Position numbers and translations under genes: made by a program. Below the pieces are notes generated by a model that searched no databases, was not told the origin of the DNA, and saw nothing but the letters and a program-made list of their open reading frames with translations. Shown here piece after piece: positions 41,970 to 56,856 of a DNA stretch of 64,000 bases. Numbering within the stretch: position 1 is the first letter of the stretch; each line of letters opens with the position of its first letter. Source of the DNA: Isosphaeraceae bacterium (lineage in GTDB: Bacteria > Planctomycetota > Planctomycetia > Isosphaerales > Isosphaeraceae); assembly GCA_025356475.1 (NCBI GenBank), contig JANXSX010000195.1, forward strand, positions 1 to 64,000. The letters run 5' to 3'.

Positions 41970-43436
41970 TTAGGCGATAATACCGTTGATAACTTTGCCA
42001 TGAACATCCGTGAGTCGATACTGTCGCCCTTGGTAACGTGAGGTCAGGCGTGTGTGATCGATACCACAAAGGTGTAGCATTGTCGCTTGCATGTCATGGA
42101 CATGAACAGGATCACTTGTGATATTCCAAGCGAAGTCGTCGGTCGAGCCGTAGACAGTGCCTGGCTTGATACCTCCGCCCGCAAGCCACCAGGTATAGGC
42201 CTTGCCGAAATGGTCCCGCCCTTTCGGACTGGCCGGATCTCCTTGACCGAAGGGGGTGCGACCAAACTCGCCACCCCAGACCACCAGGGTGTCATCCAGC
42301 ATCCCACGTTCCTTGAGGTCGCGAACGAGGGCGGCGGACGGTCCTTCGGTATCTCGGCACTGCATTTCGAGCTGCGTAAAAAGGTTCCCATGCTGATCCC
42401 AGCCAGAATGCATGAGTTGGACGAATCGTACACCACGTTCGAGCAGCCTGCGCGCCACGAGGCAGTTATTGGCATACGATCCTTTCAGCAAGGCATCAGG
42501 CCCATAGCGCTCAATTGTCGCTTTCGACTCACCGGAGAAATCGACAAGGTCCGGGACACTTGTTTGCATCCGAAACGCCATCTCATATTGAGAGATTCGC
42601 GTGTCGATTTCAGGGTCGCCATAATCGGCGAGATGGGCAGCGTTGATCTCGGCCATCTCATCGAGCAAGGCTCGCCGCCCTTCCCGACTGACACCCGGCG
42701 GGTTCGCAAGGTACGGGACAAGATCGCCCGTGTTGCGGAACCGAACGCCTTGGAATCGACTGGGGAGGAAGCCGCTACCCCAGTAATAGTCAAAGAACAG
42801 TTGACCGCACGTCTTACCTTTATCACTTGAAGTCATCACAACAAATGTCGGTAGATTGTCCGTTTCACTTCCAAGACCGTACGAGAGCCAGGAGCCCATA
42901 CTGGGGCGACCTGGCACTTGGGAACCGGTCATAAAAAAAGTCACGCCGGGTGCGTGATTTACAGCCTCAGTATGCATACTGCGGACGACGCAAATATCGT
43001 CGGCAAGGGCCCCAATGTTGGGCAACATCGAGCTGATTTCAAGCCCCGATTCCCCATACTTCTGGAACGGTTTGATCGCGGGAACGATCGGCCACTTCGC
43101 ATTGCTGCTCGACATCGTCGACAGTCGGGTCGTCCCGCGCACCGAGTCGGGGATATCTTTACCGGCCATCTCTCGCATCACAGGTTTGGGATCGAACAGG
43201 TCGACATGCGACGGCCCTCCCCCTTGCCAAAGGACGACGACCCGCTTCGCTTTGGGAGCGAAGTGGGGCAGTCCGGGCAACCCGTTCTCAGCGCTCGACG
43301 AAAGGCCGCCTGCTCCAAGCGCACTATCCCCGCCCAGGAGCGACGCAAGGGCCGCAAGGCCGACACCACCTGCTGCCGATCCGAATAACTGCCGCCGTGT
43401 GACTCTCGCAATATTCTCTTGATGGAGTTCGTTCAT
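41970..43436 (-). CDS. DUF1501 protein, copy A
   Basis: 488 residues; TRRQLFGSAAGGVGLAALASLL is a Tat-like export signal. The core reads FAPKAKRVVVLWQGGGPSHVDLFDPKP, then SMHTEAVNHAPGVTFFMTGSQVPGRPSMGSWLSYGLG and VVWGGEFGRTPFGQG...GRDHFGKAYTWWLAGGGIKPG. This is the DUF1501 family, related in fold to sulfatases/phosphatases (alkaline phosphatase superfamily) and planctomycete-rich. It is regularly paired with a PSCyt/DUF1549/DUF1553 protein; its partner here is the gene just upstream (46070-43482). Substrate unknown. Confidence 0.93.
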   Translation of the reverse strand: MNELHQENIARVTRRQLFGSAAGGVGLAALASLLGGDSALGAGGLSSSAENGLPGLPHFAPKAKRVVVLWQGGGPSHVDLFDPKPVMREMAGKDIPDSVRGTTRLSTMSSSNAKWPIVPAIKPFQKYGESGLEISSMLPNIGALADDICVVRSMHTEAVNHAPGVTFFMTGSQVPGRPSMGSWLSYGLGSETDNLPTFVVMTSSDKGKTCGQLFFDYYWGSGFLPSRFQGVRFRNTGDLVPYLANPPGVSREGRRALLDEMAEINAAHLADYGDPEIDTRISQYEMAFRMQTSVPDLVDFSGESKATIERYGPDALLKGSYANNCLVARRLLERGVRFVQLMHSGWDQHGNLFTQLEMQCRDTEGPSAALVRDLKERGMLDDTLVVWGGEFGRTPFGQGDPASPKGRDHFGKAYTWWLAGGGIKPGTVYGSTDDFAWNITSDPVHVHDMQATMLHLCGIDHTRLTSRYQGRQYRLTDVHGKVINGIIA

Positions 43437-43481
43437 ATGTCAGTCTCTCGGAGAGGTTCATAGCTCGACAAGAACCGACCG

Positions 43482-46070
43482 CTATTCGCGCGTGAGGGCT
43501 TCGTCTAAATTAAGGATGGCCAGACAGACCGCCGACAACGCCGCATGTTCGCTCAACGAGATTGACGCATCACGTTGCGAAGCACCGAACCCTAAGAAGA
43601 GTTTGGCACCCGCCGGATCAGCCTGATAAATGGCGAGTTGCTTCGCATAAGCTCTCCGGAGCACAGCCAGATCGATTTCAGTCGGCTTCCGAGTCAGGAC
43701 TCGTCGGAAGACATCGATGAGCTGGGCATTGAGGTCCGGGGAGGACTTGATTCCCTGCTGCGCGAGCATGCGAGCCGCTTCAACCCAGGTCGGATCGTTC
43801 AGTGTCGTCAAGGCGTGCAGTGGTGTACTTGTGATCGAGGTTCGGACACGGCAAGTTTGCCGGTTCGACGCATCAAACATATTTGCCGGGCCAACAGTGC
43901 GCCTCCAGAACGTATAGAGACTACGCCGATATAAATCTTGATCGGATGATGCCGGATAGGTGAAATCCCGTTCTTTGGTGATCGCCAACGCTTCCCAGAT
44001 GGCATCGGGCTGGTACGGATAGACCGGTGCCCCACCGATCTTGGGGTTGATGAGAGAAGAACTGGCCAGCGACCAGTCGCGAAGGATGAGTGATGGCATC
44101 CGGAAGCGACTTGATCGGGCGAAGAGGCGATTCTCTAGGTCCCTTGAGCGAAGTTTAAGGCTCATTCGACTCGTCTGTCGATATGTTGCACTTGTAACAA
44201 TCAGTCTCTGGATCGCTTTCATGCTCCAGCCATGATCACGGAACTCAACTGCAAGCCAGTCGAGCAGTTCGCCATGAACGGGGTACTCGCTTTGAACACC
44301 GAAATCTTCCGCCGTCTTGACTATCCCCATCCCGAAGAAGTGCTGCCACATCCGATTGACTTGCACGCGAGAGGTCAACGGATGCTCGGGAGCCACCAAC
44401 CACTGCGCAAGTCCAAGTCGATTTTTGGGAGCGTCGCTCGCAAGTGGAGGGAGGAACGCGGGAGTCGCAAACGTGACTTTGGCGATTGGGTTGAGGTATT
44501 CACCGCGACTAAGGATCGAGGTCTCACGTTCTTTGGCGTCACTCATGATCATAACGCGCGGGAGCTGATCACCTCGGTAGTCGGCTAGCTTCTTTTTGAG
44601 TTCCTCATGCTTGGCGATCGACTGCAATTTCGCGACTAAACCGGGCCTGACTTTCTCGTCGAATTGTTTCCGAAGACCCGCCTCAAGCGATTTTTTCTCC
44701 TCATCAGATCGATCCGCATCCAGCTTTCGCAAGACAGTCAGCACGGGGTCAGGTAGCCCTTTCCCCTCGGAGGGTTTGCCGTCCGCGAAGATTCCGGCTC
44801 GCCATCCCTCAAAGGCCGAGTCCGCACTGAGCTTGGCATCAGGACTTAACGCTGCGATCTGGAGATCGAGTTCCGCGACCCGCGTCTTGTACTCCTCAGT
44901 CGGGAGTTCGAGAAACGGTGCGGCAACCCGAATTCGCGACGAAAAGAACTGGGGGGTCCCACTTTCGGGAACTTTGTTAAAGGCGTCGAGCAGGCTGTAA
45001 TAGTCTCGCTGGGTGATGGGATCATATTTGTGATCGTGGCACTGCGCACATGCCATGGTCAGTCCCAGCCAGGTCGTGGCAGTGGTGTCGATTCGGTCGA
45101 ACAGATTCACAAAGCGTTGTTCTTCGGCGATCGCACCCCCTTCACCGTTGAGCAGATGATTACGATTGAATCCGCTGGCGACCTTCTGGTCGGTCGTGGC
45201 ATCGGGCAAGAGGTCACCGGCCAATTGCCAGATCGTGAACTGGTCGAAGGGGAGATCCGAATTAAGAGCCCGGACGACCCAGTCTCGCCAGATCCACTGC
45301 CAGGTATCACCATCCTGCTGGAAGCCGTTACTGTCCGCATATCGCGCGGTGTCGAGCCAATCGAGGGCCATCCGCTCGCCATAATGCGGGCTCGCCAACA
45401 ACCGATCAACGAGTGTCTCATACGCATTGGGATCACTATCGTTGACAAACGTATCGACTTCTTGCGGACTGGGCGGGAGGCCCACTAGATCAATGGAGAG
45501 TCGTTTGATCAGAGTTGGTCGATCGGCTTCGACCGAAGGAGACAAACCCTCTGTCTCAAGCTTCGCAAGCACAAACCGATCGATCGGGTTTCGCGTCCAT
45601 CCAAGGTGTTTTACCGCTGGCTCGATCGGTCGCTTGGGTGTTACAAACGCCCAATGGGCTTCGTAGTTAGCCCCTTGTGCGATCCACTGTTCGAGAATCC
45701 TCTTCTGTTCAGTCGACAGATGCCGGTTCGATCTCGGAGGCGGCATCTGTTCTTTAGGATCACTCGTATTGATGCGTTTGATCAACTCGCTCGACGCTGG
45801 ATCCTTTGGGATAATCGCTTCAGCCTCAATGGCAGCGTCACGCAGGTCCAATCTGAGGTCGGCTTGTCGTTTATTCGCATCTTGCCCGTGGCAATAGAAG
45901 CAATTCTCCGAGAGAATTGGCCGGATATCGCGATTGAAGTCGAGCGCCGTCGGGGGTGAGCCCGCAACGCAACTTGCAGATACAATAAACAGTGCAATAC
46001 TTGTGCGTAAGACTTGATCGGCAATCTGACCACTACATTGAACGGATTTCTCAATCACAGGTAACCTCAT
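43482..46070 (-). CDS. PSCyt1-DUF1549-DUF1553 cytochrome protein, copy A
   Basis: The 862-residue protein has a signal region and the PSCyt1 haem domain: FNRDIRPILSENCFYCHG (CxxCH ~ residue 57), RLDLRDAAIEA and EQMPPPRSNRHLS. The DUF1549 domain follows (NPIDRFVLAKLETEGLSPS; SLDLVGLPP-type motif; DRLLASPHYGERMALDWLDTARYAD; QLAGDLLP), then DUF1553 (PLTSRVQVNRMWQHFFGMGIVKTAEDFG; RRSLYTFWRRTVGP). The start overlaps the upstream DUF1501 stop as ATGA (46067-46070). Function inferred: periplasmic redox partner of polysaccharide breakdown. Confidence 0.95.
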   Translation of the reverse strand: MRLPVIEKSVQCSGQIADQVLRTSIALFIVSASCVAGSPPTALDFNRDIRPILSENCFYCHGQDANKRQADLRLDLRDAAIEAEAIIPKDPASSELIKRINTSDPKEQMPPPRSNRHLSTEQKRILEQWIAQGANYEAHWAFVTPKRPIEPAVKHLGWTRNPIDRFVLAKLETEGLSPSVEADRPTLIKRLSIDLVGLPPSPQEVDTFVNDSDPNAYETLVDRLLASPHYGERMALDWLDTARYADSNGFQQDGDTWQWIWRDWVVRALNSDLPFDQFTIWQLAGDLLPDATTDQKVASGFNRNHLLNGEGGAIAEEQRFVNLFDRIDTTATTWLGLTMACAQCHDHKYDPITQRDYYSLLDAFNKVPESGTPQFFSSRIRVAAPFLELPTEEYKTRVAELDLQIAALSPDAKLSADSAFEGWRAGIFADGKPSEGKGLPDPVLTVLRKLDADRSDEEKKSLEAGLRKQFDEKVRPGLVAKLQSIAKHEELKKKLADYRGDQLPRVMIMSDAKERETSILSRGEYLNPIAKVTFATPAFLPPLASDAPKNRLGLAQWLVAPEHPLTSRVQVNRMWQHFFGMGIVKTAEDFGVQSEYPVHGELLDWLAVEFRDHGWSMKAIQRLIVTSATYRQTSRMSLKLRSRDLENRLFARSSRFRMPSLILRDWSLASSSLINPKIGGAPVYPYQPDAIWEALAITKERDFTYPASSDQDLYRRSLYTFWRRTVGPANMFDASNRQTCRVRTSITSTPLHALTTLNDPTWVEAARMLAQQGIKSSPDLNAQLIDVFRRVLTRKPTEIDLAVLRRAYAKQLAIYQADPAGAKLFLGFGASQRDASISLSEHAALSAVCLAILNLDEALTRE

Positions 46071-47518
46071 GCCAGAATATCCTTGACTACTCTACCATGG
46101 ACGTCGGTAAGTCGAAATTGGCGGCCCTGGAACTTATGCGTAAGCTTTGTGTGATCAATCCCGAGGCAGTGGAGCAACGTGGCCTGGAGGTCGTGAATAT
46201 GGACTGGATTCTCAATCACGTTGAAGCCGAAATCGTCGGTCGCCCCATAGACGGTACCAGGTTTGATCCCCCCTCCTGCCATCCAGATCGAGAAGGCTTT
46301 GCCATGGTGATCGCGACCATAAGCCTCCCGTTTAGCTTCGCCTTGCGCGTAAGGAGTTCGACCAAATTCCCCTCCCCATATCACCAGAGTGTCGTCGAGC
46401 AAGCCGCGCTGTTTCAGGTCCTTGACCAAGCCGGCTGAGGCCTGATCGACATCTCTGGCGAGGATTGGGAGCCGACCGTTCAGATCACCATGATGATCCC
46501 AGTCGCGATGATACAGTTGAATGAATCGGACGTCACGCTCGGCGAGTCGGCGGGCAAGGAGGCAATTATGTGCGAACGTTCCGGGTTGTTTGACATCCTT
46601 CCCATAAAGATCCAGAACGGAGTCGGGCTCATGGGAGAAGTCGACGAGGTCGGGAACGCTCGTCTGCATCCGGTAGGCCATTTCGTATTGGCTGATCCGC
46701 GTCTCGATCTCAGGGTCGCCCGACTCCGCCTCCTGGATCCGGTTCAATTCTGCCAGTCCGTCGAGCATCGTCCGACGGCGCTTTCGGGTCATCCCTGCAG
46801 GATCGGACAAATAAAGAACGGGGTCGCCCGCACTTCGAAACTGAACTCCCTGGTGGCGACTCGGTAAGAATCCGCTCCCCCAGAGCCGTGCGAGCAGGCC
46901 CTGGCCAGCTCCGCCTTTAATCGACACGGAGATGAGTACGACGAATGAGGGCAAATTTTCGTTCAACCGCCCTAGCCCATAATCGGTCCAGGCACCGATA
47001 CTCGGACGCCCCGGCTGCTGACTTCCGGTCTGAAAGAAGGTGATTGCCGGGTCATGATTAATCGCCTCAGTGTGCAATGATCGAATAATGCAGATATCAT
47101 CAGCAATAGCACGGATACTTGGTAAGAGATCGCTGATCCGGGCACCACTCTTACCTCCCGGTTGGAAGGAGAACTTGCTCGGCTGAAGTGCGAGCCTCGG
47201 TTGAGATGCAACCATTCCCGTGATCCGCTGACCCTTCCTCACCGAATCGGGCAAGTCTTCGTTGAATCGGCTGCTTAATAACGGTTTCTCATCAAGCAGA
47301 TCAAGATGTGACGGTCCACCCGACTGGAACAGGCAAATGACCCGCTTTGCTTTCGGTGCAAAATGGGGCGATCCCGGCAGGCCCCCGGCAAAGGTGCCAG
47401 CATCCGCCAACGCGTCACTTGTGAGGATCTGTGCGAGCGCTGCAGTCCCGATGCCAAGACCGGTCTTGACCAAGAATTCACGACGGCTGGACGCAATCTC
47501 ATATTTGTGACAGGCCAT
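46067..47518 (-). CDS. DUF1501 protein, copy B
   Basis: About 483 residues with a Tat-like signal (SRREFLVKTGLGIGTAALAQIL). Conserved blocks match copy A: FAPKAKRVICLFQSGGPSHLDLLDEKP, SLHTEAINHDPAITFFQTG, VIWGGEFGRTPYAQG, RDHHGKAFSIWMAGGGIKPGTVYG. ATG 47518 is preferred to TTG 47524; neither has a clear ribosome-binding site, and coupling to the upstream gene (TGA at 47529-47531) may help. The two DUF1501 copies are clearly similar throughout, which indicates duplication. Confidence 0.93.
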   Translation of the reverse strand: MACHKYEIASSRREFLVKTGLGIGTAALAQILTSDALADAGTFAGGLPGSPHFAPKAKRVICLFQSGGPSHLDLLDEKPLLSSRFNEDLPDSVRKGQRITGMVASQPRLALQPSKFSFQPGGKSGARISDLLPSIRAIADDICIIRSLHTEAINHDPAITFFQTGSQQPGRPSIGAWTDYGLGRLNENLPSFVVLISVSIKGGAGQGLLARLWGSGFLPSRHQGVQFRSAGDPVLYLSDPAGMTRKRRRTMLDGLAELNRIQEAESGDPEIETRISQYEMAYRMQTSVPDLVDFSHEPDSVLDLYGKDVKQPGTFAHNCLLARRLAERDVRFIQLYHRDWDHHGDLNGRLPILARDVDQASAGLVKDLKQRGLLDDTLVIWGGEFGRTPYAQGEAKREAYGRDHHGKAFSIWMAGGGIKPGTVYGATDDFGFNVIENPVHIHDLQATLLHCLGIDHTKLTHKFQGRQFRLTDVHGRVVKDILA

Positions 47519-47528
47519 GATCAATCAA

Positions 47529-50500
47529 TCAATTCTTGGTGATAGTTTCATCAAGGTTTAAGATCATACTGGCGACAACCGTCATGCTGGCCAATTCTGA
47601 CTTCGATAGTGTGGCGTCGAGGGCCGACGAACCCACCTTCAAGAGACCATCAACACCTAACGGGTCGCTGGCGAATTCAGCTCGGAATCGCTCAAGGATG
47701 TCAGTGAGGACCCGAGACTCCTCAAGACGCGGAGTGCGCCCGGTGGCCAGGCGGAAGCCAAATGTGATCCGTTCACGATCGCTATCTCCCCCTTCGCGAA
47801 TCATGCGTGCTGCGAGTTGACGGGAAGATTCTAGGTATGTTGGTTCGTTCAAAAGTACGAGTGCTTGCAGCGGCGTGTTGGTCCGTGAGCGCCTTGCAAT
47901 GCAGAATTCTCGCTCGGGGACATCGAACGTCAACATCGCCGGTTGCGGCGCGGTGCGTTTCCAGAACGTATAGAGGCTCCGCCGATAGAGGTCGTCCCCC
48001 TGGCTATTCACCCACTTCGTGCCCGGATAGTCCGCACCGACCACAACGCCGCTGTAGAGACCCTCGGGCTGGTAGGGAAAGACGCTCGGCCCGCCAACAT
48101 GACGCTTCAGAAGGCCGGAGATCGCAAGAGCCTGGTCGCGAATTAGCTCCGCTGGGAGACGGACGCGAGGCCCACGGGCTAAAAGTCGGTTCTCGGGGTC
48201 GAGGCTGAGTAAGCTGGGAGTCACCGCCGACGCCTGTCGATATGTCGCGGACAGAACGATCGTCTTATAAATCGATTTGACGTTCCAACCTCCATCAACA
48301 AACTCTCGTGCCAACCAATCGAGCAATTCCGGATGACTGGGCCACTCGCCTTGGGAGCCGAATTCTTCCAAAGTTTTGACGAGCCCCGTCCCGAAAAGTT
48401 GTGCCCAGAACCGGTTCACGACCACTCGCGACGTGAGAGGATGATCCTTCTGGGTGAACCAGAGGGCCAGACCAAGGCGGTTGCGTGGAGCCCCATCAGG
48501 CCAAGGAGCGAGCAGTTTCTCAGGCACCCCTGGTTCGACCGGCTCCCCATGCGCATCATATTGCCCACGGTTCAGAACGAACGAGGGACGGGCCACGGGG
48601 AGATCCGCCATAACCATCACACTGGGCAGATTACGACTTAGCTTCAGATGTTGCTCCCACAGATTCTCGTTTCGCGTCGCAAACTCTTGCCACTCAACAT
48701 CCGTTGAATCAAGAACTACGTCTCTTACCCAGTCCAGTGCATCATCGGCGAGAGCATCTTTATCAATGAGTTCAAGGGCGTATGCAAGTGCATTGGATCG
48801 GAATGTGATCAACACTTCGTCCCGAGTCAGAGCTCGTGAGAAGATCCGGACTTCATCGACAAGGCCACGATAGGACGCGGAATCTTTGCCGCCATCTCCA
48901 CCCAGAAGGTAGGGTGAACCCGAAGGATCGCTGAACAAGCCATCATAAGGGATGCGTGTGAGGATCTCGCGACCATCGATGAACATCCGCACATTGCCGG
49001 CCTTCGCCCCTCCCCCATAGGTGAGCGTGACCTGACGCCAACGCCCTGGAGTCATCTTGGCCCCGACCGACACGACTCGAAGCGCCTGGGCGGGAAATCG
49101 ATCGTTCATCCGCAATTCCAACTCACCATCAACCAGACGGATTTCTTGACCTTTGCCATACCCAGCCCCTTCAGGGACACCGCTGTAGCTCTGATTTGAG
49201 AGCAACGCAACATCGTGTGGGTTATCACTTGAAGGATTGAGCCAGAACGCAATCGTCACACCTGTTTTCTTATCAAACTTGATGTGCTTTCCTTCAACCT
49301 TAGCCAATGGCGAGCTCGCGTCTCCCACCCAAGCTTGCCCAGTGATTCCGGGAACCAGTTTGGGCTTCATTCCTGGGAACGAGAGAACATCGACCTTGGG
49401 CTTGTCGGATTCGCAAGCGAGATGAAGCAAAAGGTCTTTGGTCGGAACCGCAGCGTTGGCCTCGGCAATTTCCTTTTCAAGGAGGGGCTTGAATTGATCG
49501 CGCCATCGCCAGGCCTTCCGGCGTTCTGAGAGCTTCGGCGCATGTTCTACGAGCTCGCGTTCGTTGCGTTCAAGAGTGGCCGACTGATCCCGCGTGGGAG
49601 CCGAGAGGAACGGGACGGCGTTGGCAACGCGACCGTCTTCACCATGTTCGGGTACGGAATTAAAGAACGCGAACATCCGATAATAGTCGCGCTGGGAGAT
49701 TGGATCGAATTTATGATCGTGGCAGCGTGAACACTCCATAGAGAGCCCGAGCCAGGCCATACTTGTCGTTCGGACGCGATCGGCCACATACTCGACGCGA
49801 TACTCTTCCTCAATGATCCCGCCCTCGGAATTGATCACATGGTTCCGACCGAACCCGGTCGCCAGTCGCTGGTCGAGGCTCGGCTTGGGGAGCAGGTCGC
49901 CGGCCAACTGTTCAATCAGAAACTGGTCATAGGGCTTGTTCGCGTTGAAGGATTCGATGACCCAGTCGCGCCAGCGCCACATCGATCGCGCAGAATCGTT
50001 ATTGAAACCGTGCGTATCCGCGTACCGGGCGACGTCGAGCCAATCGATCGCCAGACGCTCGCCAAAGTGTTCGGACGCGAGCAGTCGATCGACCACCGAA
50101 GCGTAGGCCAGCTCACCTCGAGCACCAATGTCCGCGAGGAAATCGTCGAGTTCGTTCAATGGCGGCGGCAAGCCAATCAGGTCGAAGCTCACCCTCCGTA
50201 GCCAGGTTTCGGGCCTTGCCTCAGGACTGGGCTTCAGGCCTGAAGTCGTAAGTCTCGCGGAGACAAAAGCGTCGATGGGGTTGCGAATCTCCTGAGGAGT
50301 CCTTCCCAGAATCGGCATCGCAGGTCGAATCGGCGGTAAAAACGCCCAGTGGGGCTCGTACTTCGCTCCTTCGGAGATCCATCGAGCAAGGATCTCAACC
50401 TGCGCAGGGCTGACCTGCCGATGCGAGTCGGGAGGAGGCATCCGCTCCAGGGGGTCAACCGAATTGAGGCGAGCGATCAACTCGCTGTCGTCTGGCTTGC

Positions 50501-50708
50501 CGGGAACGATGGCTCGAACGCCGTCATGGTCCGCAGTCGCCCCATCGAAGGAGTCGAGCGATCGACCCCCCTTGACCTTGCCTTGCGAGTGGCAGTGGAA
50601 GCAATTTTCCGAAAGAATCGGCCTAATGTCCCGGTTGAACCGGAGGTGCTCCGCTTCCGCCGGCAGAGCCGCCGCAATCAGCACGAAAAACGCAGCGGGG
50701 TTCATCAT
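47529..50708 (-). CDS. PSCyt1-DUF1549-LamG-DUF1553 cytochrome protein, copy B
   Basis: The 1059-residue protein starts with a signal peptide (MMNPAAFFVLIAAALPAEA) and the haem domain FNRDIRPILSENCFHCHS. DUF1549 follows (RNPIDAFVSARLTTSGLKPSP, IDWLDVARYADTHGFNND). A LamG/concanavalin-like domain (~415-600: KTGVTIAFWLNPSSD, MFIDGREI, LVDEVRIFSRALTRDE) is inserted before DUF1553 (PLTSRVVVNRFWAQLFGTGLVKTLEEFG). LamG domains bind carbohydrate, so the protein may dock to a glycan. It is 197 residues longer than copy A because of this insertion. First gene of the block. Confidence 0.95.
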   Translation of the reverse strand: MMNPAAFFVLIAAALPAEAEHLRFNRDIRPILSENCFHCHSQGKVKGGRSLDSFDGATADHDGVRAIVPGKPDDSELIARLNSVDPLERMPPPDSHRQVSPAQVEILARWISEGAKYEPHWAFLPPIRPAMPILGRTPQEIRNPIDAFVSARLTTSGLKPSPEARPETWLRRVSFDLIGLPPPLNELDDFLADIGARGELAYASVVDRLLASEHFGERLAIDWLDVARYADTHGFNNDSARSMWRWRDWVIESFNANKPYDQFLIEQLAGDLLPKPSLDQRLATGFGRNHVINSEGGIIEEEYRVEYVADRVRTTSMAWLGLSMECSRCHDHKFDPISQRDYYRMFAFFNSVPEHGEDGRVANAVPFLSAPTRDQSATLERNERELVEHAPKLSERRKAWRWRDQFKPLLEKEIAEANAAVPTKDLLLHLACESDKPKVDVLSFPGMKPKLVPGITGQAWVGDASSPLAKVEGKHIKFDKKTGVTIAFWLNPSSDNPHDVALLSNQSYSGVPEGAGYGKGQEIRLVDGELELRMNDRFPAQALRVVSVGAKMTPGRWRQVTLTYGGGAKAGNVRMFIDGREILTRIPYDGLFSDPSGSPYLLGGDGGKDSASYRGLVDEVRIFSRALTRDEVLITFRSNALAYALELIDKDALADDALDWVRDVVLDSTDVEWQEFATRNENLWEQHLKLSRNLPSVMVMADLPVARPSFVLNRGQYDAHGEPVEPGVPEKLLAPWPDGAPRNRLGLALWFTQKDHPLTSRVVVNRFWAQLFGTGLVKTLEEFGSQGEWPSHPELLDWLAREFVDGGWNVKSIYKTIVLSATYRQASAVTPSLLSLDPENRLLARGPRVRLPAELIRDQALAISGLLKRHVGGPSVFPYQPEGLYSGVVVGADYPGTKWVNSQGDDLYRRSLYTFWKRTAPQPAMLTFDVPEREFCIARRSRTNTPLQALVLLNEPTYLESSRQLAARMIREGGDSDRERITFGFRLATGRTPRLEESRVLTDILERFRAEFASDPLGVDGLLKVGSSALDATLSKSELASMTVVASMILNLDETITKN

Positions 50709-52048: not shown

Positions 52049-55000
52049 TCAGACTCGGCTTGCCAAGTGCTGTCGCATCGAATCGAGCATTGGTGTGGAC
52101 GGGAAACCGTATGGACGGAACTTCTCGAGTCGATTTTGTTCTTCGCTCGCGAACATCGCCCGATTGGGCCCGAGCTTGCTGGCGACCGGTGAATCGAGAA
52201 AGTGACCAGAATCGTTCTGACTCATCTGAAAGAGCACCCGCATGTCGAACTCTCGCAAACTCTGATGATCGAAAATTCGATTCAGATTATTGAGATTGTC
52301 GCACCAAATGACCAGGTGGACCCCCAGGCTCGGCCCTTCGCGAAGCAGGTAACGGAGTTGATCGTTCGGGCTGAGCGGGTCGTCTGCGCTCCGTGAGAAG
52401 CTGTAGTCCTCTTCACCTTTCCGAAGGTCACGGAATCGGGCGAGATCATAAATGAACATGAAGATTTCGGGCCCGTCGGTGGCATCGGGACCGGCCCTCC
52501 GTACAACTTCTTGACTGGCTTCGGTCAAGATCCGACTCGCGTCCCGACCTCCACCGACCTCGATCTGTTGCGGGTAGGTCAACGTGAGCCGGCGGAACCA
52601 CTCCGCGCGTGGGTGATCTTCCGGAGTGCCGTCGAGCACAAGGAATTTCGCCCCAGCCCGAATCGTCTCGGAATCGGCTGGGGCATATTGAGCAGCCAGG
52701 CTGAGGAATGCGGCGGCGATCACCCCCTCCGCAGACTCTTCGTTCTGGCCGACGATGAGGAGATGGTTCCCCCCTTGGCGACGGAACAGCGCTGCGGTCG
52801 GCTCTTTGATGGCGACAGGATCGCCCAGCCAGGCTGTGGAGGAACGCGGGGAGGATTGCCATGAAGGCTCGTCCAGCAAGCCCTTCAGCTTTGCGTTGCG
52901 ACCAAGCTCCGCAGGAGTGTCCCCTTCGAAGACGATCAACGAGCGCTTCAGCTTGGGAGGTTCGCGCCGTGCCCGTTCCTGGAGTTGGTCCAGGTACACC
53001 TCGCGTCGGTCATCGGGCAGCCAAACAACCTGGAAGAAGTGGTTTCCTTCAGGCATCCCGTTCGCGTCGTTGTAAACGGCTTCACCCGGTCGCGAGAGCA
53101 GCCGGGCCGCGTTATTCTGCTCGTTGAGGATCAAATACGCATCCGACTCGCTGCACTGAAGCGCAATGCGAATCGCCATCTGTCCGAGCGTGGCACGGGC
53201 CAACGTGAAGGCCCCGCCCAATGTCTGTGAGCCGAGTGTCACATGGACGCCGAATGCCCGACCTTGGCGAACTAGTCGGTCGAGGAGAGTGGCAGCCTCC
53301 TGCGCCAGTTTGTCTTCTTCAACGAAGAACTCCTGAAACTCATCAACGATCAGAAGGACGCGGGGAAGGGGCGGCGATCCAGCAACATTCCGATATCCGT
53401 TCAAGTCTTGAACGCCTGCATCTCTGAACAAGTCGCCACGTGTGCGCATCTCTGTATCAAGTCGCTGAAGTACGCTAATGCCGAACTCGCGTTCACTCTC
53501 GATAGCGATCACTGACGCGTGCGGAAGGTCATGGGTGGCGTAGACCTTGAACTCGACCCCCTTCTTGAAGTCGATCAAGTAGAGATCAACTTCGTCTGGG
53601 CTGTAGGTCAGCGCCAAGTTGGCGATCATCGCGTGCAATAATGTCGATTTGCCTGATCCAGTCCGACCAGCGATCAACACGTGTTGGGATGTTCCTTGAC
53701 CGAGCGCGAGATGTTGACGCTTATTGGGGCCACTCTTACCGAGAGCGATATCGATGCCCGCACGGCTATCCCCGGCCCACCAGGCTTCGGGAGCGGGGGC
53801 GATGAACTCGAAGGGGACGACCACTCTTCGGACGTCACGCGCGGCCTTGGCACTCTTCTGGATCAGCCGGGTGGCGACGTCCGCAGGGGGCATCGCATCG
53901 AGCCTGACAGGGAAGCGCCCGAAGTCCGGATCATTCCAGACGAGTCGATCGTCCTGCCAGGTCAAGGTCTCCGCATGACTTATCAAGTCAGCATACGTGA
54001 TCCCTTCCGGGAGCGGACGGTCCTGGTCGACGGCAACCATCGTCAGCACACCGCAAGGAACCCCTCGGGTGACAATTCCCGCCAAACGAGCGGCCGACTT
54101 CTCATCGAAGCCCGCAGGGAAGTCGGCGATGACCACCACTCGGTAAGATTCGGCGACTTCACCGGCGGCTGTGTTGTACTCTTCGATCGTTGCATAGTTG
54201 TTTCTGAGGTACTTCTGAGCAACTTTCTCCATATGAGCACTCAGCTCTGCCAAACGCTCTTCGATTTGGCGAGGCTCGGTCCAGACCTGGCCGTTCACAA
54301 GAGCGTCGTCGAAATCGGCCAGGTGCATGAACGCGCCGAAGTTGCGACCGATGCCAATGGGGTCGATGAGGGTAAATCGAACCGAACCTGGCGGCAAACT
54401 CGTCAGGAGTCGGAGCATCCCCGCCTGCAAGGCTTCGATCGATTTCGTCCGACCCGCCGCAGGTGCCGAGACCACCAGATTGGCCCGTGCGGGAAACGCG
54501 CGAATGGCCAAGAAGGGTAACGGTTCGGAAAGACTCTCCATCAGACTGACGTCAGGCGAGACTCCGTTCTGAAGCTGATTTAGATCGATGGGTATTTGAC
54601 CCATCGGCAAAACCCGAGGGACGGAACTCGCATGCGAAGAACTGGTGGGGTCGGACTGATCCCACGACGGATTCGACTCCGCAACCTCGTGAGTCACAAC
54701 TTTGAGTTCGTCGGTCACGTGGCGCATCGCCTCACGCCATCGATTCGCCATCAACTCATGTGAAGTTGCATGCCGAGAATGGATCTTTTCCTTAACCTCT
54801 TGATATTTCTCTTCGAGCCGACGAGTGGCGGTCTCAGACTGTTCGTGGAGTTCCTTGAGCCTACGATCGTGAGTGTCGATGGCTTCGCGAAGATCGACTT
54901 GTTGCTTGGTCCGTAGCTCGACCATTCTCGTCGCGTAGGTCTCGTTGATCTCACGGAGTCGTTCATCACGTACCGATTCGGCAGTGGCAAGTGCCTTTGT

Positions 55001-55993
55001 ATGCTTTGTCTTTGCGAAGAGAAGGCCCTCATCTCGCTGAGTCGCGAGTCGATTGCGTTCGGTGGTGTTCTTCTCTTGGGCTAAGGCCATGCAGTGCGTG
55101 CCCAGAGCATGGGCATCGACCACCTGTTGCTGAAGCGGGTAGTAGTGGACACTCACCTGAGTTTTTGAAAGGTTGCGTAGCTGAGTACGAATGAGGTATC
55201 CAAAAATGAGCGCACCAACAAGTGCGAGCGCTGTGCCAATCAAAAACTCTTGGAGCCAGATCATTGGACCGAGTAGGAGTGCAAATATGAAAATAAATGG
55301 CCAGAAAGCAGGCCCTTTCATTGTTTTGGGGATCACCAACCCTTCAACGAGTTTGAGTGGTCGCTCGACTTTTTCTAAACGGTCAAACAAGCCTTCCACG
55401 GGGTCGTCGAACCGATACGTCTCGCGCGTCGGCTTGTCGGGTGGAGGCTTGAGACCAAACTTTTCGTATGCTTCAAAAAGAGCGGCGAGTCGACTTTCAT
55501 ACGCTTGTGTGATCCGTCCTGCATCGTCAATGGGCTTTCGCGCTTTGGCGAAGGTCATGGCGGCTGCGTTCTCACCGGCATCATTTTGGCTGGTGACGTT
55601 CGACTTGTCGCGCTGATAGTCTTGACGAGATCTTTCCTTGCTCGCGTCAAAATCCGCAGCGATTTTACGACTTGATCGCGCGAAAACCGACTTGGTCGAC
55701 TCTTCACCCATCAGTGCCGATTGGACGATCGCTCGACGTCGATTTCCGTCCGCCTTTCGGGCGTCTTCCTCCAGAGTGAGCGACCTCTGTTTCAGTGCGT
55801 CGCCCGCCCGTTCGGCTTCGGTATCTGCGGTCGAGTCACTGGTCGAACGCGTTGTCTCGATCGTCGATTCAGAGCGTGCCCGTTCCGCTATTGCGACCAG
55901 GAGTGTTCGCAACGTCTGGCGTTGGCGCTCGACCAAGCTGCTCGGGTTGGAGTCGGTGGTGGGTTCATTCTGCATGACCGGGGCGTTGCTCAC
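52049..55993 (-). CDS. Membrane FtsK/SpoIIIE-family ATPase, EccC/EssC-like architecture
   Basis: The protein has 1314 residues from GTG 55993. Order: a charged helical region (1-220); two membrane segments (~230-268, FIFIFALLLGPMIWLQEFLIG); a coiled coil (~290-435); a degenerate ATPase-like domain (~490-690, SAPAAGRTKS in place of Walker A); an intact FtsK/SpoIIIE domain with Walker A GRTGSGKST (~776) and Walker B LLIVDEF (~880); and a second degenerate ATPase-like domain (~1060-1300). One active motor between inactive P-loop domains is the layout of T7SS coupling ATPases; true FtsK has one motor plus a gamma domain, which is not seen. GTGA overlap couples it to the 79-residue protein gene. 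It lacks an FHA domain. Function as a secretion motor is inferred. Confidence 0.85.
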   Translation of the reverse strand: MSNAPVMQNEPTTDSNPSSLVERQRQTLRTLLVAIAERARSESTIETTRSTSDSTADTEAERAGDALKQRSLTLEEDARKADGNRRRAIVQSALMGEESTKSVFARSSRKIAADFDASKERSRQDYQRDKSNVTSQNDAGENAAAMTFAKARKPIDDAGRITQAYESRLAALFEAYEKFGLKPPPDKPTRETYRFDDPVEGLFDRLEKVERPLKLVEGLVIPKTMKGPAFWPFIFIFALLLGPMIWLQEFLIGTALALVGALIFGYLIRTQLRNLSKTQVSVHYYPLQQQVVDAHALGTHCMALAQEKNTTERNRLATQRDEGLLFAKTKHTKALATAESVRDERLREINETYATRMVELRTKQQVDLREAIDTHDRRLKELHEQSETATRRLEEKYQEVKEKIHSRHATSHELMANRWREAMRHVTDELKVVTHEVAESNPSWDQSDPTSSSHASSVPRVLPMGQIPIDLNQLQNGVSPDVSLMESLSEPLPFLAIRAFPARANLVVSAPAAGRTKSIEALQAGMLRLLTSLPPGSVRFTLIDPIGIGRNFGAFMHLADFDDALVNGQVWTEPRQIEERLAELSAHMEKVAQKYLRNNYATIEEYNTAAGEVAESYRVVVIADFPAGFDEKSAARLAGIVTRGVPCGVLTMVAVDQDRPLPEGITYADLISHAETLTWQDDRLVWNDPDFGRFPVRLDAMPPADVATRLIQKSAKAARDVRRVVVPFEFIAPAPEAWWAGDSRAGIDIALGKSGPNKRQHLALGQGTSQHVLIAGRTGSGKSTLLHAMIANLALTYSPDEVDLYLIDFKKGVEFKVYATHDLPHASVIAIESEREFGISVLQRLDTEMRTRGDLFRDAGVQDLNGYRNVAGSPPLPRVLLIVDEFQEFFVEEDKLAQEAATLLDRLVRQGRAFGVHVTLGSQTLGGAFTLARATLGQMAIRIALQCSESDAYLILNEQNNAARLLSRPGEAVYNDANGMPEGNHFFQVVWLPDDRREVYLDQLQERARREPPKLKRSLIVFEGDTPAELGRNAKLKGLLDEPSWQSSPRSSTAWLGDPVAIKEPTAALFRRQGGNHLLIVGQNEESAEGVIAAAFLSLAAQYAPADSETIRAGAKFLVLDGTPEDHPRAEWFRRLTLTYPQQIEVGGGRDASRILTEASQEVVRRAGPDATDGPEIFMFIYDLARFRDLRKGEEDYSFSRSADDPLSPNDQLRYLLREGPSLGVHLVIWCDNLNNLNRIFDHQSLREFDMRVLFQMSQNDSGHFLDSPVASKLGPNRAMFASEEQNRLEKFRPYGFPSTPMLDSMRQHLASRV

Positions 55994-56229
55994 AGGTGCT
56001 CGCTCCGATCGGAACAATCTTGGCGGATGCGATCGAGAACATCGGCAAGCTTTTGCATGCCGATCAGAGCGGCATCGACGGCTGGTTCAATTGGGAACAG
56101 GTAGCGCTGTTCAAACCGCTGGCGGGCAACGTCGTTCCACGTCGGCTCGGTCAAATTCCACTCATCGCGGAGTGTTCGGACTGCACTCTTGAGCCGACTT
56201 GCACCGGCCATGACCTTCGCATTCGCCAT
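55990..56229 (-). CDS. Small helical WXG100-like protein
   Basis: 79 residues. A first helix (about 8-24, ASRLKSAVRTLRDEW), a short turn with TEPTWND (W31), then a long second helix (F39, Y43 ... DVLDRIRQDC). The Trp at the turn, the hydrophobic spacing (WNDxAxxxFxxxY) and the two-helix layout recall WXG100/ESAT-6 proteins, although Gly is replaced by Asp and the length is short. The stop overlaps the start of the FtsK/SpoIIIE gene (GTGA at 55990-55993). The identification as a T7SS-type substrate or chaperone is tentative. Confidence 0.6.
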   Translation of the reverse strand: MANAKVMAGASRLKSAVRTLRDEWNLTEPTWNDVARQRFEQRYLFPIEPAVDAALIGMQKLADVLDRIRQDCSDRSEHL

Positions 56230-56250
56230 ACAAACACACCTTCGAGAAGT

Positions 56251-56856
56251 TCAGTCGGGGTCCGGGGGTTCCGGAGACGATTCAGGCTCGTCCTCAGCCG
56301 GGGAGTTCGCAGGGGTCTCAGTCTCAAAGTCTTGGATCACTTGCACCATCCTCTCGGAAGGTGTCAGCGATGGGATTGCAATATTCAAATATCCTTCGAG
56401 GGCATCGACCAACCTGTTGAGGAGCATCATAGCTCGTTCGACATCGGCTGCGGCCAGGTTGCTGATCCGGCGTGTTGAGGCCCGATACTCAAGAGCGGCC
56501 TGCTGAAGCTTCGGCTCCCACTTCTTAACTAAGATAACACGAAGTTCGGCGTCATGAAGACTTGCCTCAGCCTTCCGAAGGATCTCTTTTTGCTCACTCA
56601 TCGCTGGTGAGCCATCGGCGGTCTTCGCGATTTTCCGGCGAAAGACTTCCGCGCGGGCTGACGCGACAGCCTCGCGACGTTTCTTAATCTGGAGCTGCCA
56701 AAATTCGCGACGATCGTGTTGCAGCCATTGAACCGTGCGGCGAACCTCGGCATCGACAGTCCCGAGCGAAGCAAGTGCCTCTTCCGAAAAGATCCCGAGA
56801 GCGATCCGAAATATCTTCAGGGACTCGATGGAGCGGACATCGGCCTGGGTGCTCAT
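56251..56856 (-). CDS. Helical coiled-coil protein, first gene of the secretion-like operon
   Basis: 201 residues, almost all helical: two long amphipathic helices (VRRTVQWLQHDRREFWQLQIKKRREAVASARAEVFRRK and KILRKAEASLHDAELRVILVKKW) give a long hairpin, followed by an acidic/proline-rich tail. Size and hairpin form resemble PE/PPE or LXG N-terminal domains, but no signature is found. It stands 21 bases upstream of the 79-residue protein gene and so belongs to the same operon. Function unknown. Confidence 0.75.
   Translation of the reverse strand: MSTQADVRSIESLKIFRIALGIFSEEALASLGTVDAEVRRTVQWLQHDRREFWQLQIKKRREAVASARAEVFRRKIAKTADGSPAMSEQKEILRKAEASLHDAELRVILVKKWEPKLQQAALEYRASTRRISNLAAADVERAMMLLNRLVDALEGYLNIAIPSLTPSERMVQVIQDFETETPANSPAEDEPESSPEPPDPD

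Follow-up and report, generated by a model that had tools for sequence, protein, structure and literature searches.

What does a large membrane ATPase do when it is encoded together with two small helical proteins in a planctomycete? Type VII secretion systems (T7SS) are well described in Actinomycetota and Bacillota, and Planctomycetota are diderm bacteria. A first-pass annotation of 64,000 nt of Isosphaeraceae DNA (the window, i.e., the whole stretch analysed) proposed that three minus-strand genes within it form a type VII secretion-like operon. The contig that holds the window (C228) belongs to a near-complete genome of 5.9 Mb. The layout of the three genes is as annotated: a gap of 21 bases (56230-56250) separates the gene for a long helical hairpin (HEL; protein P0003) from that for a small hairpin (SML; P0002), and the sequence GTGA is common to the end of SML, which closes with CTGTGA (last codon plus stop), and the start of the ATPase gene (Table 1). 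These reading frames are more than chance occurrences, since the ATPase matches the Pfam family FtsK_SpoIIIE with 136 bits and many planctomycetes conserve both the sequences and the order of the two small genes. A scan for promoters and terminators was uninformative. Elsewhere in the window, at 41970-50708, DUF1501-like genes alternate with planctomycete cytochrome c/DUF1549/DUF1553-like pairs, as read from sequence and unscored; these are unrelated to the operon.

Table 1. Genes of the window operon and regions of the encoded ATPase
Feature	Position in window	Strand	Basis
HEL (P0003), long helical hairpin, 201 aa	56251..56856	minus	AF2 model; conserved family A3/A6; no Pfam family
SML (P0002), small hairpin, 79 aa, WXG100-like, W31-x-D33 at turn	55990..56229	minus	AF2, WxD conservation, Foldseek, profile
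EccC/EssC-like membrane-anchored ATPase, 1314 aa, GTG start	52049..55993	minus	Pfam, NCBIfam, PDB profile comparison
ATPase: charged N-terminal region, probably coiled coil, residues 1-226	55316..55993	minus	Read from sequence, no dedicated predictor
ATPase: two membrane segments, residues 230-247 and 250-268	55190..55306	minus	Hydropathy
ATPase: second charged region, probably coiled coil, residues 273-440	54674..55177	minus	Read from sequence, no dedicated predictor
ATPase-like domain 1, degenerate, without Walker A	53894..54556	minus	FtsK_SpoIIIE 29.7 bits; weak hhalign to EccC
ATPase domain 2, predicted motor; Walker A 53645-53668, Walker B 53336-53356	52964..53821	minus	Pfam, conservation, hhalign
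ATPase-like domain 3, degenerate P-loop	52052..52876	minus	hhalign 95.6% probability to EccC ATPase domains

A four-gene set and its paralogue

Another contig of this genome (C26) carries a second copy of the operon. This copy has four genes, with an extra protein of 90 residues encoded in front. The extra protein matches the Pfam WXG100 family above threshold (39.0 versus 27.3 bits), all 13 members of its own group match this family, and the best matches of the planctomycete WXG100 profile are the structures of HP0062 (2e-13) and EsxB (5e-10). A separate, weak WXG100 match in this genome (20.1 bits, below cut-off) lies within a 433-aa frame at G000:C28:21779-21970.

How general is each arrangement? 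There are 62 loci with enough upstream DNA to assess. In 45 of these, WXG100, HEL, and SML lie directly upstream of the ATPase gene, in the order WXG100, HEL, SML, ATPase. The ATPase gene stands alone in five loci. The WXG100 gene is missing from the other 12, two of which are duplicate records, and all 12 belong to the clade of the window operon (clade A), whose members consistently lack this gene. The usual, ancestral planctomycete unit is a set of four genes: WXG100, long hairpin, small hairpin, and ATPase. Hence, the gene order noted in the first-pass annotation is indeed conserved in other planctomycetes, but the three genes are not the ancestral unit, and the true WXG100 gene is the one missing here. 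Clade A does not replace the four-gene copy (B), because 20 of the 21 genomes that bear clade A retain B as well. Since clade-A loci lack WXG100 while their genomes keep the four-gene copy, the operon in the window is a WXG100-less Isosphaeraceae paralogue of the four-gene set. Among the close relatives of the ATPase that carry names are MAGs of Isosphaeraceae and Singulisphaera.

Across 195 Planctomycetota genomes, the WXG100 and ATPase genes have identical distributions, both being present in the same 27. Were genomes independent, a random 27-on-27 match would have a probability of ~1e-33, but this assumption does not hold. This co-occurrence is not due to linkage, because the genes are scattered in two genomes—at four distant chromosomal sites in one (G052) and at three in the other (G037)—with all of the genes kept. 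Where it is present, the four-gene set acts like a single functional unit. Beyond the four core genes, no neighboring family recurs in more than about six loci, and the large clusters of neighbors consist of core genes or of wrong-frame overlapping ORFs.

The ATPase and the hairpin proteins

The ATPase has the two membrane segments and the three ATPase-like domains that had been described, although domain 1 is less well supported than the others. The membrane pair is found by hydropathy in 81 of 83 full-length homologues. A Walker A motif (GRTGSGKS, residues 776-783) and a Walker B motif (LLIVDEF, residues 880-886) are present in the middle domain only; the core residues of these motifs are invariant in 18 homologues, and domains 1 and 3 are degenerate at the equivalent sites. 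The middle domain is the predicted active motor. Its hhalign scores against the three domains of EccC are 211 (D1), 161 (D2), and 80 (D3). For the protein as a whole, the best matches in both NCBIfam and PDB are EccC/EssC; it scores 115 bits with EccCa, 104 with EssC, and 33 with FtsK in NCBIfam, and the comparison of EccC/EssC with FtsK profiles gives 104 versus 37 bits. The ATPase is a homologue rather than an equivalog of EccC/EssC, because these scores fall under the equivalog cut-offs. Like the ATPases of T7SS, it combines tandem FtsK-like domains with an N-terminal membrane pair, whereas FtsK has a single motor with a gamma domain. PADLOC matches to SspH/mad8 were set aside as motor-domain similarity only.

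The large coiled coil next to the membrane had been suggested as a possible adaptation to the planctomycete envelope. This idea did not hold up: the coiled coil is probably not such an adaptation, because relatives of the ATPase that have no membrane segments, encoded in proteobacterial defence islands (CoCoNuT), are reported to have a long N-terminal coiled coil (PMC11090510). The feature that is common in planctomycetes is the membrane pair.

The 79-residue protein P0002 is modeled by AlphaFold, from 34 homologues, as the antiparallel two-helix hairpin that had been anticipated (residues 2-30 and 33-78, pLDDT 91), with Trp31 at the turn. WXG100 proteins are two-helix hairpins of ~100 residues with a tryptophan at the turn, and the model has this form. 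Its top solved neighbors in Foldseek are EsxB/WXG100 proteins (TM about 0.8, probability 1.0), with E-values that are weak for small hairpins, and EsxA ranks first when the SML family profile is compared with PDB (E=0.004). Thus, the fold bears out a WXG100-like protein, but the curated profile does not: P0002 scores 15.0 bits with WXG100_ESAT6 (TIGR03930), under the cut-off of 44.85. P0002 itself has no Pfam match, and 15 of the 59 SML family members match PF06013 weakly (E<0.1, best 2.5e-4). The glycine of the WxG motif is absent; instead, all 59 small proteins and all 35 WXG100 proteins have WxD. By sequence, P0002 is a remote relative of WXG100 proteins.

The 201-residue protein P0003 was likewise correctly described as a helical hairpin. 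In its AF2 model, two long helices (residues 7-76 and 87-158) form one hairpin (pLDDT 87, helices mostly >90), followed by an acidic, proline-containing C-terminal tail of mostly low confidence; there is no toxin domain at this end, and no signal peptide or membrane segment was noted. Foldseek returned generic coiled coils only (SMC, F-BAR, chemoreceptors), and the profile of the wider HEL family found nothing specific in PDB or Pfam and no LXG match. What occupies the position of P0003 in relatives? Plasmid loci with the same WXG100 and motor families have other proteins in this slot. In a plasmid of Helicobacter sp. NHP19-012 (L174, 8001-12403), the gene order is WXG100, WHH nuclease (44.6 bits), SUKH immunity protein (SMI1/KNR4, 29.1 bits), a 77-aa protein, and FtsK; a toxin/immunity pair in this slot is as expected of an export module. 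In a Caballeronia plasmid, the slot holds a coiled coil with a nuclease-like domain, a reading that follows PMC11090510, together with VWA, CARF, PP2C, and STK genes. In a Rhodococcus sp. AH-ZY2 plasmid (L175, 834-6264), the ATPase of the WXG100 module has an N-terminal TerD domain and adjoins TerD genes, and the corresponding slot encodes a 314-aa protein with a HEL-like stretch, matched weakly by the HEL profile (E=1.4e-4 at Z=10000); the Caballeronia coiled-coil protein gives an even weaker match. Three HEL members from Phycisphaerae have a C-terminal Imm33-like domain (L097:4560-5621, L113:3998-5068, and L159:309-1343, with 54, 33, and 49 bits, respectively). Because plasmid relatives hold nuclease-type proteins in this slot and Phycisphaerae have Imm33-like fusions, comparison suggests that it is a carrier/effector slot, and that planctomycetes generally may have retained the carrier without the toxin. 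From the position of the slot and the weak profile match, we read P0003 as a putative LXG-like carrier, devoid of a toxin, that would serve a minimal WXG100/EssC-like translocase.

Translocase or intracellular motor

What would such a set of proteins do? One reading, which in our judgment is evenly poised between right and wrong, is that the window operon, as the WXG100-less paralogue, encodes a minimal type VII-like translocase anchored in the inner membrane. The ATPase would form a hexamer held by the membrane pair and the coiled coils, with the middle domain as the sole ATP-driven motor and the degenerate third domain as a docking site for a helical client complex. This complex would consist of a WXG100 protein, P0002, and P0003. 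The four-gene copy could supply WXG100 protein to both paralogues, or a P0002 homodimer could replace it here. P0003, which has no toxin domain, would stand in for the carrier/toxin protein of the mobile relatives. We infer secretion by the planctomycete set, with polypeptides, rather than something else, being moved across the inner membrane.

The type VII label stands in part. The EccC/EssC-like motor and the hairpins fit it, but a genome search for EccB and EssB/YukC found neither above cut-off, and the YxxxD/E export motif is present in 0/35 WXG100 proteins and 2/59 small proteins. Moreover, no outer-membrane part was identified. The genome has one YukD homologue (53.5 bits), which belongs to a separate ubiquitin-like conjugation operon. 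That operon (G000:C165, L177, 7119-10671) has genes for a YukD-like UBL, an E2-like protein, a ThiF/E1-like protein, and a JAB-like membrane protein; the UBL alone was scored and the rest were named by sequence reading.

The missing EccB/EssB and the absent motif also favor a serious rival, that the proteins form a membrane-bound complex of motor and adaptors with an intracellular task (envelope stress, conflict, or quality control) and no role in secretion, the hairpins being structural adaptors only. It gains further from relatives that adjoin TerD genes, from relatives with TM-less ATPases in CoCoNuT/TerY-P defence islands, which may not secrete at all, and from the HEL family itself, which is present in a single copy per operon: a search of 59 relatives for HEL-like proteins outside the operons found none except one marginal match, and hence no toxin versions or substrates. 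On the other hand, a WXG100 protein and an EccC-like motor encoded with a toxin/immunity pair on the Helicobacter plasmid fit export better, and the membrane pair is conserved in planctomycetes. We regard this intracellular complex as less likely than not, though a serious contender. Far less probable is an FtsK-type DNA translocase whose small proteins are unrelated helical partners. The ATPase does belong to the FtsK_SpoIIIE superfamily, and in the maximum likelihood tree of motor domains, the group formed by all planctomycete motors and the Caballeronia plasmid motor (support 99/96) joins FtsK, but weakly (88/60); branches are long, the tree does not discriminate between a deep affinity with T7SS domains and one with FtsK, and the T7SS alternatives are not rejected by AU tests (p 0.24 and 0.42). 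An earlier motor tree that included the degenerate third domains was discarded. Thus, the claim that the ATPase is of the EccC/EssC type and not FtsK is upheld by the profile scores, which differ by a wide margin, but is not settled by the tree. The three ATPase-like domains, the conserved WXG100 partner, and the presence in the same genome of an ordinary, separate FtsK (a 791-aa frame) also argue against DNA translocation.

A further alternative, compatible with either export or intracellular work, concerns the window copy specifically: it may have drifted to a separate function, for example by relying on P0002 homodimers as the sole WXG100-like client. The consistent lack of WXG100 in clade A and the retention of the four-gene copy beside it both speak for this, but the window system could simply use WXG100 protein made by the other locus. 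We consider such drift a real prospect that nonetheless falls short of even. Returning to the translocase, a broader version is doubtful as a whole: Planctomycetota would have a chromosomal, minimal type VII-like translocase built from just four proteins, among them a toxin-free LXG-like carrier and, as its only membrane component, the ATPase, and with no known toxin-delivery role, which Isosphaeraceae duplicated into two systems with one common WXG100 protein. In a diderm phylum, a co-inherited set of four genes would offer a simple setting in which to ask what the EccC/EssC motor and WXG100 proteins do when accessory machinery is absent, and whether the WXG100/motor pair first served in export or as an adaptor within the cell. 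The nuclease-type proteins that replace the long hairpin in mobile relatives provide a testable link to polymorphic toxin delivery.

Relation to known systems

WXG100/motor modules, including those of planctomycetes, were already noted in 2012 and 2024. Stand-alone "solo WXG" modules with a YueA-like three-domain ATPase, the middle domain being active, have been described, and planctomycetes were named among their carriers (Zhang et al. 2012, PMC3482391); PMC11090510 and PMC4978471 also cite Anantharaman et al. 2012 for WXG100/FtsK modules. In the part of the literature that was searched, we found no description of the four-gene planctomycete set and its co-inheritance, of the membrane pair as a planctomycete feature, of the long hairpin family, or of the WXG100-less paralogue. 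Relative to the solo WXG modules, it is a co-inherited chromosomal set of four genes, a membrane pair, a long hairpin partner, and a WXG100-less paralogue that distinguish the system here.

T7SSa and T7SSb (EccC/EssC, EsxA/B, LXG-Lap1-Lap2) have in common with the planctomycete set the motor family, the hairpin partners, and the logic of small partners plus a long carrier; they differ in that the planctomycete set has no detected EccB/EssB, no YxxxD/E motif, and another number of ATPase-fold domains. LXG effectors require two WXG100-like small partners (PMC9600955). P0003 with its small hairpins is similar in architecture to LXG proteins with Lap1/Lap2, i.e., a long helical protein with small partners, but P0003 has no LXG match in Pfam or PDB, and LXG effectors carry a C-terminal toxin that it lacks. 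In H. pylori, HP0062 has WRD in its hairpin bend, and an FtsK/SpoIIIE gene lies near HP0062/HP0066 (PMC3397514, PMC4978471). Among solved structures, HP0062 lies closest to the planctomycete WXG100 proteins, and its WRD agrees with the WxD that these and the P0002-type proteins have in place of WxG; the P0003 family is not reported at that locus. The CoCoNuT/TerY-P relatives (PMC11090510) likewise combine an ATPase that has a coiled coil and three ATPase domains, of which the central is active, with two WXG100-like proteins and a coiled-coil protein. Unlike the planctomycete set, they have no TM helices, they are accompanied by CARF, VWA, PP2C, and STK genes, and their coiled-coil protein bears a nuclease domain. 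Set beside these systems, the window operon looks like a stripped-down, chromosomal version of the WXG100/motor module known from earlier surveys.
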